A stretch of DNA of 64,000 nucleotides. Source: Gigantopelta aegis (taxonomy: Eukaryota > Mollusca > Gastropoda > Neomphalida > Peltospiridae). Positions within the stretch are counted from its first letter, which is position 1, and each line of letters begins with the position of its first letter. This document shows, in pieces, positions 29,501 through 35,500 of this stretch. The notes under the pieces are model-generated. The model saw only the letters and a list, made by a program, of their open reading frames with translations. It ran no database searches and was not told where the DNA came from. Position numbers and translations under genes: made by a program. Location: NCBI RefSeq assembly GCF_016097555.1, contig NC_054701.1:65707357-65771356 (forward strand), written 5' to 3'.

Positions 29501-32500
29501 AACTCACCTATACCCATAGGTAAATGGCTCCCCACAAGCTAAGTTAGGGGAGCAATTAATCATTCCTTCCAATTTTGTTCATGGCACGGTCTGCCTATAT
29601 GCATAGTGTCTGTTTCTAGTGTTTCTGAACACCTTTACGCAAGGTGTCTACCACTAGTGTTGCTCACTCCCCGATATCCACAGTGTTTATCACTAGTGCT
29701 GTAGAGGTTGGAGGTCGAGGATTTGTTGAGCATCCAAAGTGTTTATCACAAATGTTGTAAAGTCAGAACAACAACTCACCCATACACATAGTGTCTATTG
29801 CTAGTGTAGCGGTTGGAGGCCTACACCCATGGATCTAGACCTAAAGCATTTATCACTAATGCAGGCCGTCAAGTGAGGCGGTGGGTCAAAAAAATGGGAA
29901 AATAGGAATTTTTGTTGCCTGAAAATAGGGTTAAAATAGGAATTTTGCCCACAAAATAGGAAGAAAATTGGAATTTTGCATAAAAGTTAATGTCCCAAAA
30001 TAGAGAATATTGCAGGGGTCAAGTGAGTGAGCCATCTCAAAAAACTAAATATGGAAATAGAAAACCATTAAAAAGATAATAATACAGGAAAATAAGACAA
30101 TGTGTATATAATAGGAATAAAATAGGCACTTATTTTGTTTTAAGATGGCCTCCCAACACCCCTTGTAAGGTGTATACTACCAAATCAAATCCCATAGACG
30201 ACAATAGTAACATATGTGGCTTAAACTCCTACCTGCAACGTATCAACCGACGTAAACGCCACGGATATAAATACTACCACCCCTTACACTTAAAATGAAT
30301 CAGAAAAAAATGGGGGTCAAGCTGCTCGTTTCTGAGATAACGGGTAGCGTCTATGACTACCCTAGTTTCGCACAAAATTCGAGTACTTTTTTTTACAGGT
30401 ACCCCATACATGTTTCAAGCACAAGGCTACTTGACACATTGGTACTAGATGAAATAAAATTGCAATTTTTTTTTACCCAGATGAAACTATTATTTTTTAC
30501 AACCAACACACTCACATGTATAACCAATCACAGGACTTGTGGTGTTCACTTCTCTATCAAAAGTTCGGTGCACCTCGCACTTTGACCCAGCCGGAAGTTA
30601 TTTGGTTTAGTACTACCTGTAGCCATCCCGATCCACCACTTTTTATTCAGACAATGCAGTGGTTGAATTTGGTTCTTTGGAGTAAGACTTTTAAAAAGCA
30701 ACACAATGCAGTATTCCTTTTATGCTACTGAATAATACAAGTTACAAGATCAAATTTTAACTCTGAAATAACAGGGGTGTTGACTGAAAACCCCCCACAA
30801 CAAGGCATTGCTGACCCAGTGACACCATCAAAAACAGCAGCAATGGCAGTGTATGTGTATGTGATCAACTGGATAATATAGCTGGATTTAGTAGCTGTGT
30901 GCTAACTGAATTGGTAGAAATATGTCAAATAATTATGATACTGCAGGTGTGCACATTTAATAGAATACTTGTTACAGTAAGCAAAGCACAACCTGCAAAT
31001 GAGCACTGAAGTCCTACTTCCTTAGACACCATACACCAGTATATCAAAGGTAACCCTAACAGCTTCAGCCTGACTTCGTACAATTTAGACGTGATGAGAA
31101 ATGTGGAAAATGTAAGATATTTGCACAAACACCCACCCACCCACCCAATTTAGCAGTTGTTTTGACTGTTCCATGATCATTCTTCAATATTTTATATAAT
31201 ATAGGAACCAATATACAATGAGCAGATAACTGAAATGATAACTAATTGTTTTTCATTTTATTTAACCTTGTTTAAAGGAGACCTTAATCTATCACAGCCA
31301 TCCTCTCCAATGGTTTTATACATTTTAAAACAGTTAATGACCACATTATAAACTGAAAGTAGGTAACCAGAGGGAAATTCAGTTTTATGATCAACTGGTT
31401 ATGAGAAGTAATATACTGCATTGGTGATATATATTAGTGTCACCCGAGATCGAAGCTGAAGGTTTTTAATGGCCTTCTCACTCCCCTAATAGCCACCCTG
31501 CCCACCCATAATGAAACAATGAATGATTTAGTATGCCTAAGTTGAAAAAGGATCATGGTCAATCACAGATCAGTCCAATTACTGCAATGTGTTTGCTGAA
31601 AACTTTAAATAATAGCATACATGTATATACACAATGCAATTACATCAATAGATTTTATACTATCTAGGAAGCAGCATCACATGCAGACCACCACCAGAAC
31701 CTATACATGTTTAAAACAAGAAATGATTAGTATGTAGCTCAATGCATAGTTAACCATCACACAAGGTAACACAACTATCCACCAGCTAGCAAGCTAAACT
31801 GAGCATTTATCAGGCTTCACTGGAGCAACTGCATGCAAGCTAACTCAAAAGCACCATTACCTGCAGATAATGAACTAAAGAAATAATTAGTATGTAGCTC
31901 AAAGTCACTAGGCCTAGACTGAAAGGGTTGCCATATGATATCCTTTCAACCTTCTAGTTTCGAGCATTCAACAAGATCAGATATTACCAAAAAACAGAAA
32001 CATATCCATAAATTCAGAAATTATAAATAAGAGGACTTTATATTGCATTGTGAAAATTAATAACTGGAAGCCTGTAACCTTGCATCCCATCTGCATATTC
32101 AGATTTCAATGATTATGCCACAGATATCACAATATGCCCATAGCAAGTCATCTGGAGCAAATGGTGTGAAGAGAAAAAATATGGTGTCGCTAAAAAAAAT
32201 ATTTTTAAAATGAAACTGGTCAAAAGTGCAAAAAAAGAGGGGGAAAATAGGAATTTTCATCAAAAAGAGGGCTAAATAGGGACTCATCAAAAAAATTGGA
32301 ATAAACAGGAAAAAGTAGGATACTTGATGGCCTGCTAATGTTAAAAAAGTCAGAAGTAGAACTCCCCTATACCCACAGTATCTATTGCTAGTGTTGCTAA
32401 CTCACCTACACAAATGTATACCCATAGAATTTATCACTGGTGTTGTAAAAGTCAGAAGTAGAACTCACCTATACACAAAACATGTATCACTAGTGTTGTT

Positions 32501-35500
32501 AACTCACCTATACCCGCAGTATATATCGCCAGTGTTGCTAACTCACCTATACCCGCAGTATCTATCGCCAGTGTTGCTAACTCACCTATACCCGCAGTAT
32601 CTATCGCCAGGGTTGCTAACTCACCTATACCCGCAGTATCTATCGCCAGGGTTGCTAACTCACCTATACCCGCAGTATCTATCGCCAGGGTTGCTAACTC
32701 ACCTATACCCGCAGTATCTATCGCCAGGGTTGCTAACTCACCTATACCCGCAGTATCTATCGCCAGTGTTGCTAACTCACCTATACCCGCAGTATCTATC
32801 GCCAGGGTTGCTAACTCACCTATACCCGCAGTATCTATCGCCAGGGTTGCTAACTCACCTATACCCGCAGTATCTATCGCCAGGGTTGCTAACTCACCTA
32901 TACCCGCAGTATCTATCGCCAGGGTTGCTAACTCACCTATACCCGCAGTATCTATCGCCAGGGTTGCTAACTCACCTATACCCGCAGTATCTATCGCCAG
33001 GGTTGCTAACTCACCTATACCCGCAGTATCTATCGCCAGGGTTGCTAACTCACCTATACCCGCAGTATCTATCGCCAGTGTTGCTAACTCACCTATACCC
33101 GCAGTATCTATCGCCAGGGTTGCTAACTCACCTATACCCGCAGTATCTATCGCCAGTGTTGCTAACTCACCTATACCCACAGTATCTATCGCCAGTGTTG
33201 CTAACTCACCTATACCCACAGTATCTATCGCCAGGGTTGCTAACTCACCTATACCCACAGTATCTATCGCCAGGGTTGCTAACTCACCTATACCCACAGC
33301 ATCTATCACCAGTGTTGCTAACTCACCTATACCCACAGTATCTATTGCTAGTGTTGTAAAGTGTAAATAGAACTCACCTATACCCACAGTATCTATCACC
33401 AGTGTTGTTAACTCACCTATACCCACAGTATCTATCGCTAGTGTTGTAAAGTGTAAATAGAACTCACCTATACCCACAGTATCTATCGCCAGTGTTGCTA
33501 ACTCACCTATACCCGCAGTATCTATCGCCAGTGTTGCTAACTCACCTATACCCGCAGTATCTATCGCCAGTGTTGCTAACTCACCTATACCCGCAGTATC
33601 TATCGCCAGTGTTGCTAACTCACCTATACCCGCAGTATCTATCGCCAGTGTTGCTAACTCACCTATACCCGCAGTATCTATCGCCAGGGTTGCTAACTCA
33701 CCTATACCCGCAGTATCTATCGCCAGTGTTGCTAACTCACCTATACCCGCAGTATCTATCGCCAGGGTTGCTAACTCACCTATACCCACAGTATCTATCG
33801 CCAGGGTTGCTAACTCACCTATACCCACAGTATCTATCGCCAGGGTTGCTAACTCACCTATACCCACAGTATCTATCGCCAGGGTTGCTAACTCACCTAT
33901 ACCCACAGTATCTATCGCCAGTGTTGCTAACTCACCTATACCCACAGTATCTATCGCCAGTGTTGCTAACTCACCTATACCCACAGTATCTATCGCCAGG
34001 GTTGCTAACTCACCTATACCCACAGTATCTATCGCCAGGGTTGCTAACTCACCTATACCCACAGTATCTATCGCCAGTTGCTAACTCACCTATACCCGCA
34101 GTATCTATCGCCAGTGTTGCTAACTCACCTATACCTGCAGTATCTATCGACAGGGTTGCTAACTCACCTATACCCGCAGTATCTATCGCCAGTGTTGCTA
34201 ACTCACCTATACCCACAGTATCTATCGCCAGTGTTGCTAACTCACCTATACCCACAGTATCTATCGCCAGGGTTGCTAACTCACCTATACCCACAGTATC
34301 TATCGCCAGGGTTGCTAACTCACCTATACCCACAGCATCTATCACCAGTGTTGCTAACTCACCTATACCCACAGTATCTATTGCTAGTGTTGTAAAGTGT
34401 AAATAGAACTCACCTATACCCACAGTATCTATCACCAGTGTTGTTAACTCACCTATACCCACAGTATCTATCGCTAGTGTTGTAAAGTGTAAATAGAACT
34501 CACCTATACCCACAGTATCTATCGCCAGTGTTGCTAACTCACCTATACCCGCAGTATCTATCGCCAGTGTTGCTAACTCACCTATACCCGCAGTATCTAT
34601 CGCCAGTGTTGCTAACTCACCTATACCCGCAGTATCTATCGCCAGTGTTGCTAACTCACCTATACCCGCAGTATCTATCGCCAGTGTTGCTAACTCACCT
34701 ATACCCGCAGTATCTATCGCCAGGGTTGCTAACTCACCTATACCCGCAGTATCTATCGCCAGTGTTGCTAACTCACCTATACCCGCAGTATCTATCGCCA
34801 GGGTTGCTAACTCACCTATACCCCCAGTATCTATCGCCAGGGTTGCTAACTCACCTATACCCACAGTATCTATCGCCAGGGTTGCTAACTCACCTATACC
34901 CACAGTATCTATCGCCAGGGTTGCTAACTCACCTATACCCACAGTATCTATCGCCAGTGTTGCTAACTCACCTATACCCACAGTATCTATCGCCAGTGTT
35001 GCTAACTCACCTATACCCACAGTATCTATCGCCAGGGTTGCTAACTCACCTATACCCACAGTATCTATCGCCAGGGTTGCTAACTCACCTATACCCACAG
35101 TATCTATCGCCAGGGTTGCTAACTCACCTATACCCACAGCATCTATCACTAGTGTTGCTAACTCACCTATACCCACAGTATCTATTGCTAGTGTTGTAAA
35201 GTGTAAATAGAACTCACCTATACCCACAGTATCTATCACCAGTGTTGTTAACTCACCTATACCCACAGTATCTATCGCTAGTGTTGTAAAGTGTAAATAG
35301 AACTCACCTATACCCACAGTATCTATCGCCAGTGTTGTAGAGGCTGGAGGTGGAGGATTCGTTGAGCATCTCGCGGTGAACCTCCAGACGCTGGTGGAGC
35401 GACTCCTGCTGCTTCTGCAGGTCGCGTTCCATCTGCACCTGGATACCTTCGATGAGTCGCTGATGTTCAACGTACTGTGACTGCAACTCCCGGCGGTGCT

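Follow-up and report, generated by a model that had tools for sequence, protein, structure and literature searches.

What sets the end of an exon when the intron behind it repeats the signal for that end dozens of times? The question is raised by a 64,000-nt stretch of the Gigantopelta aegis genome (NC_054701.1, 65,707,357-65,771,356 of the forward strand; hereafter the window, whose positions are used below). In it, intron 2 of a gene on the minus strand opens with an array of 5' splice sites (donors) that all repeat the one at the end of exon 2. The array observation is confirmed, and it is a large new example of a published kind of boundary repeat known as a mirage, not the first. We consider it quite likely that it is a neutral minisatellite of this type, seeded across the exon 2 donor, and that the first donor (donor 1) is the one used.

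The donor array at the end of exon 2

On the minus strand, exon 2 is preceded by the acceptor TATCTATCTCAG and ended by the donor TAG|GTGAGTT (Table 1). When exons 1, 2 and 3 were joined via donor 1, an uninterrupted frame of 895 codons was obtained; if exon 2 is skipped, the frame closes after 716 codons, 3 of which lie beyond exon 1. According to the exon coordinates, intron 1 is 504 nt long and intron 2 is 6129 nt long.

From the exon 2 boundary onward, the minus strand carries the exact motif TAG|GTGAGT 73 times; the GT of the first lies at 35307 and that of the last at 32405, ~2.9 kb apart. A preliminary description of this DNA had reported about 70 repeats of the boundary in 39- and 51-bp units, and the count bears this out: 64 of the 72 spacings between donors are 39 bp and six are 51 bp, with one each of 37 and 63 bp. 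Tandem Repeats Finder reported a period of 39 with 70.9 copies at 32462-35286. Two further TAG|GTGAGT lie beyond the main array (GT at 29507 and 29470). In the whole window AGGTGAGT occurs 75 times, always on the minus strand, compared with a mean of 1.76 and a maximum of 6 in 100 dinucleotide shuffles of the window.

The array units consist of the end of exon 2 followed by the donor. The consensus for 5' splice sites is MAG|GTRAGT, and TAG|GTGAGT agrees with it at 8 of 9 positions in all 73 donors, so that the match to U1 earlier claimed for nearly every unit holds throughout the array. It had also been stated that any donor except the first would give a premature stop. Indeed, an in-frame stop follows from each of the later donors 2-73 (72/72), and for donors 2, 3 and 73 it comes after residue 790.

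Table 1 Features of the array and its gene (window positions), and sampled loci of the same genome with a probable exon boundary
Feature	Position	Strand	Description	Basis
First coding exon	36042..38180	-	2139 nt, ATG to donor CAG|GTAGGT, ends in phase 0	Open frame and donor
Exon 2 (second coding exon)	35308..35537	-	Acceptor CTCAG|TTATCG; length 230 nt; last bases TATAG|, phase 2	
Donor 1 (GTGAGT), presumed authentic	35302..35307	-	Sole stop-avoiding donor among 73 identical ones	
Exon 3	28861..29178	-	Acceptor CCATCAG|ATTAAC, compatible phase; 3' end set near 28861	
Homogeneous minisatellite	32462..35307	-	Boundary units of 39 and 51 bp that all contain TAG|GTGAGT	Tandem Repeats Finder and unit census
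Block with 51-bp units	35160..35339	-	Similar blocks at 34356-34533 and 33320-33497	Tandem Repeats Finder and unit order
Diverged edge units	32336..32461	-	One donor broken (GGGAGT)	
~2.5-kb segment	29861..32335	.	Short terminal-repeat-like ends GCAGGCCATCAAG / CTTGACGGCCTGC	Sequence, by eye
Decayed distal array remnant	29464..29860	-	Two intact TAG|GTGAGT, others changed	nhmmer, alignment, sequence
Copy of exon 2 end (35370-35311)	29675..29734	-	60 bp, 51/60 identical	blastn
L054, GCN1-like	C3:29888703-29892076		57-bp units over >3 kb	Pfam HEAT_EF3_N 2.4e-13, above cut-off
L044 and L045, paralogous C-type lectin genes			47-bp unit	Lectin_C in first half, 0.0057 and 0.099, below cut-off
L053, EF-hand exon			Unit holds only ~9 exon bases (by eye)	EF-hand match 2.3e-4, below cut-off
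L051			~10 exon bases in unit (by eye)	Open frame and acceptor only
L046 and L043				Open frame and acceptor only

The recurring 51-bp blocks and the unit order reveal higher-order, large duplications within the array, as unequal exchange would predict. The units span the exon-intron boundary and carry the AG/GT splice signals, and the array has a concerted interior and diverged edges (71 proximal versus 8 distal aligned units; block repeats), all of which are marks of a mirage. Near-identical blocks inside the array are also what an array expanded or rearranged during assembly would contain, and one amphioxus mirage looks aberrantly assembled in the genome draft, according to the cited part of that report (PMC3087553). 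Such an artefact is nevertheless very unlikely here: a search of the genome with exon 2 gave a single match, located within a 96.8-Mb contig, the distal edge decays in a graded fashion, atypical of misassembly, and numerous similar arrays are present in the genome.

Decayed copies and the origin of the units

The array had been placed at 32341..35330, where it does lie, but its decayed copies continue to ~29464, split by the ~2.5-kb segment. Using a profile of the unit, nhmmer detected three copies at 32499-32360, beyond the homogeneous part, and seven decayed copies from 29858 to 29464, past the segment, two of these seven with E >1. Intact TAG|GTGAGT is present in four of the eight aligned distal units, and the other four have lost the exact donor. 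The ~2.5-kb segment looks inserted into the old array; automated repeat finding did not report its terminal-repeat-like ends, and the call is therefore made by eye. When this segment and the ~285 nt before exon 3 are set aside, intron 2 is mostly made of boundary copies.

The copy at 29675-29734 extends farther upstream into exon 2 than do the exon bases in the array units. Since this distal copy holds 60 bp of exon 2, we conclude that the exon 2 boundary was copied into the intron, rather than a satellite supplying the exon end, in line with the derivation of the units proposed earlier. The same copy bears on another explanation, namely that the true end of exon 2 lies at another place and that the array, be it intronic or coding, is a repeat without relation to it. 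One array frame is indeed open through many units (open reading frames of 542 and 506 amino acids), and the gene is without a Pfam match above the cut-off (its predicted protein had no useful match in the PDB either). Yet a period divisible by 3 makes the open frame unsurprising, the phase and frame of exons 1-2-3 join via the first donor only, and an exon-derived copy exists. We regard this explanation as extremely unlikely.

The array would thus have started with the tandem duplication of a segment comprising the end of exon 2, the donor and the first intron bases. The duplicated boundary would then have been amplified and homogenised, probably via unequal exchange, which we infer to be the mechanism of array growth, and the older distal part would have decayed and been split by the apparently inserted segment.

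Choice among identical donors

The pre-mRNA would present 73 donors with the same nine bases. If the exon 2 acceptor is paired with the nearest donor across the 230-nt exon, donor 1 would be chosen and, therefore, every copy would be removed as intron; since the copies would be invisible to splicing, such arrays could grow. Evidence for this type of pairing comes from human data, as far as the cited parts of the study describe them: in events whose sites were nearly equal in strength and lay between long introns, the upstream 5' site was preferred, and in five exon-defined minigenes with two identical strong 5' sites the upstream one was exclusively used (PMC9225289). With introns of 504 and 6129 nt on its two sides, exon 2 falls into this class of long flanks and equal strength (exon definition). 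In amphioxus, regular splicing is reportedly undisturbed by the mirages, according to the cited portions of two papers (PMC3087553, PMC3902484). From this analysis we infer the use of donor 1 and the neutrality of the array, which gives no sign of a function in its sequence and is probably harmless.

The 1,149,253,464-bp assembly containing the window was surveyed for arrays of three AGGTRAGT spaced 28-58 bp from start to start, with the reversed pattern as a control. The eight-base donor arrays gave 4500 matches and the reversed-motif arrays 4599. For the nine-base motif AAGGTAAGT, eight loci were obtained versus seven for its reverse (loci grouped by eye; C1, C2 and C3 to 63.7 Mb; 166 Mb). 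Donor arrays are thus in no clear excess over reversed-motif arrays.

Several observations weigh against a neutral array with donor 1 in sole use. By matches, both nine-base motifs outnumber their reverses: AAGGTAAGT with 358 versus 175, an excess without a locus excess because a few large arrays supply the difference, and TAGGTGAGT with 484 versus 367, where 70 of the 484 are the array under study. Across the 71 proximal units that were aligned, no substitution was seen in the 568 cells of the AGGTGAGT columns, compared with 92 in the 2181 cells of the other columns. As the units are copied from one another, counting variable columns is preferable to counting cells; 10 of the 39 columns vary, none of them among the nine donor columns (p 0.047). 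These counts do not show constraint on the donor, but weak constraint may exist. In addition, local RNA folding gave the nine bases of donor 1 an unpaired probability of 0.0026 versus a median of 0.0081 for the 73 donors. The rule of donor choice that we apply to this mollusc is derived from human data, and the cited parts of the same study report that without a strength filter the downstream 5' site was favoured in ~60% of events, and that weakened sites combined with large exons in minigenes caused exon skipping (PMC9225289). Finally, the human IFI6 (6-16) minisatellite (Turri, Cuin and Porter 1995) supplies multiple splice donors (via PMC4526556, PMC2572611, PMC3618361, each as cited in part), and two of its downstream repeat units are used, resulting in three mRNA species (PMC4526556).

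The IFI6 case is also an argument for leaky donor choice, in which some transcripts would use donors 2 to n, giving a truncated frame and probably nonsense-mediated mRNA decay (NMD), with array length setting a constant tax on output. The identity of the 73 donors over nine bases and the stop behind every later one agree with this scenario, and donors 2 and 3 would make exons of merely 281 and 320 nt; transcripts from these two donors, if made, would probably be cleared by NMD. On the other hand, identical strong donors competing under exon definition led to use of the upstream one only, in the minigene data cited (PMC9225289), donor conservation is not clear, and eight-base donor arrays are not in excess. 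We therefore consider leaky choice unlikely.

Selection on the donors was dropped as evidence: the p value was 0.047, and 0.14 when CpG columns were set aside (6 of 35 columns variable). In the eight aligned distal units, substitutions affected 4 of 61 cells in the AGGTGAGT columns and 38 of 214 elsewhere. RNA structure hiding the later donors was rejected as an explanation of donor choice, as predicted pairing gives donor 1 no advantage. Recursive splicing, for which each unit offers AG|GT, was rejected because the units, on reading, lack a pyrimidine tract.

Another possibility is a functional platform for U1, where the donors recruit U1 against premature polyadenylation of the 6-kb intron or titrate it. 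The genome contains 42 U1 gene matches, and all ten of those inspected start with ATACTTACCTG; therefore, the U1 of this organism can pair with the array donors. This canonical 5' end and the presence of 75 U1-matching sites in one intron speak for such a platform. However, titration by a single locus is implausible because of the 42 scored gene matches, and the U1 sponge was rejected on these numbers; moreover, the donors decay in distal units, and at L042 and L048, which hold comparable arrays, no exon boundary is evident. Taken together, a U1 platform seems highly improbable. The U1 genes were found in tandem with ~1.1-kb spacing on contigs C93 (6.4 kb), C317, C325 (4.8 kb), C3810, C4499 and C4822. 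Interspersed repeats close to one U1 gene, like those of the window, have a molluscan appearance.

Four consequences had been proposed in the preliminary description: a U1 sponge, noise in exon 2 length, dosage control by NMD, and toleration of the array because the first donor wins. The last fits best with the minigenes (PMC9225289) and the mirages (PMC3087553), as far as the cited parts of these papers go, and the other three gain no support from the column counts (p 0.047 and 0.14) or from the survey, with no clear array excess.

Boundary repeats in the same genome and in other animals

Fifteen donor-array loci were sampled, seven from the first of the 4500 matches (C1, 0.7-9.9 Mb) and eight from the first of the 358 (C2, C3); the sample thus represents the first places of the match lists and is not random. 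A probable exon boundary was recognized at 7 of the 15 (Table 1). In a PDB search with the GCN1-like locus L054, engineered repeat proteins led the list, none of them with a single stretch passing alone. Of the matches that have such a stretch, the best were to a chain of 2898 residues, labelled ribosomal protein L19 (9.7e-14), and to GCN1 (chain 7nrc_A, 3.4e-12). The GCN1 match covered query residues 2-61 of 61 and thereby reached the residue that immediately precedes the first donor. Most of the listed L054 units also carry an acceptor-like word, TTGCAG or ATGCAG. For the lectin gene L044, a later exon matched Lectin_C above the cut-off (1.8e-9). A C-type lectin exon of L044 (reverse complement 2488-3690) is preceded by 13 acceptor-boundary copies and followed by 5 donor-boundary copies. 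At L043 the searched donor motif falls in an acceptor array; there, at 2260-5501 (C1:1171500-1177000), a 176-nt candidate exon lies between 21 acceptor-boundary copies of 46 bp and at least 25 donor-boundary copies of 85 bp.

No exon boundary was found in the fetched stretch at the other eight loci (L042, L047, L048, L049, L050, L052, L055 and L056), which leaves its absence undecided for L052, where the array reaches the edge of the stretch, and for L056, with only ~150 bases upstream. By eye, the sequence around L048 and L055 is interspersed repeat and that around L047 simple repeat. At L042, a single strand holds 86 donor-like sites, more than are present in the array under study.

The sampled examples suggest that boundary repeats are not confined to amphioxus. 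Much of intron 2 outside the apparent insert is built from copies of the intron's own beginning, and an intron can thus lengthen with the mRNA unchanged. One may speculate, though we find it doubtful, that boundary minisatellites are a standing force in this genome, by which ordinary genes (the array gene, the GCN1-like gene, the lectins) gain intron length through copies of their own splice sites, with array length setting the rate of wrong-donor use and hence a copy-number-dependent, NMD-cleared tax on gene output.

The view that no array of this kind had been described does not stand, given the mirages of amphioxus, IFI6 and the further examples in the same genome. Within the cited parts of the reports, amphioxus mirages comprise those of Adh3 and the globins BflGb6 and BflGb9 (PMC3087553), with TnC and PGBD5 added later (PMC3902484). 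In the BflGb6 mirage the two haplotypes differ, with 6 and 3 units of 150-160 bp, whereas the mollusc array has 73 exact donor units; the Adh3 units measure 10-72 bp, compared with 39 and 51 bp here (PMC3087553). IFI6 is similar in that minisatellite units provide splice donors, and differs in that, in the accounts cited above, its downstream donors give isoforms, whereas here all 72 add a stop.

Boundary repeats in human segmental duplications are likewise of minisatellite size, located at exon-intron boundaries and alter intron structure, but they average 4 units of 30 bp and are discussed, in the part cited, as a source of new introns, unlike here (PMC2812944). Intron gain through tandem AGGT duplication likewise changes intron content, as described in the cited part of that work, whereas in our case an existing intron grows and none is created (PMC4974935). 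Long intronic tandem arrays are also known from intron 3 of an abalone TSSK1-like gene, also in a mollusc (27-bp unit; PMC6905558), from intron 1 of earthworm metallothionein (PMC12783039) and from TERT VNTR6-1 (PMC11830802); boundary copying is not described in the cited sections of these three reports.

The interest of the locus lies in the size of the array, the further examples in the genome and the natural experiment on donor choice. With its dozens of identical 5' splice sites, such an array is a natural form of the two-site minigene experiment, and since these sites differ mainly by position, they could measure how strictly the spliceosome picks the first donor. Loci of this type will probably defeat both annotation and the mapping of short reads.

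MPHOSPH9 is a plausible name for the predicted protein, although this identity remained unproven. The HIKAMADLRSYYE exon presumably resembles MPHOSPH9, and near the array gene an open reading frame at 42845-43411 on the plus strand encodes an RF-1 domain (Pfam) of the kind present in MTRFR, which adjoins MPHOSPH9 in human. A literature search for MPHOSPH9 together with bivalve retrieved no paper. Coding exon 1 contains six imperfect 45-bp repeats (37369-37646), and the encoded repeat has GAG and SDEE-like motifs.

Two other minisatellites are present in the window. The first (1-1257; 67-bp unit, 19 copies, cut by the window edge) contains 34 copies of the branch-point-like word CTGAC and stops ~40 bp before a likely acceptor, TTTTTGCAG|GATGCAG (1299). 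The second (52160-54008; 40-bp unit, 46 copies) begins ~70 bp past the likely donor (52087) of a NUDIX-domain exon, and its unit is, by eye, not a copy of that exon's boundary. At 3530-4368, open reading frames like those of a mariner-type transposase were found, with helix-turn-helix matches below the cut-off; the second of these frames presumably also resembles such a transposase.

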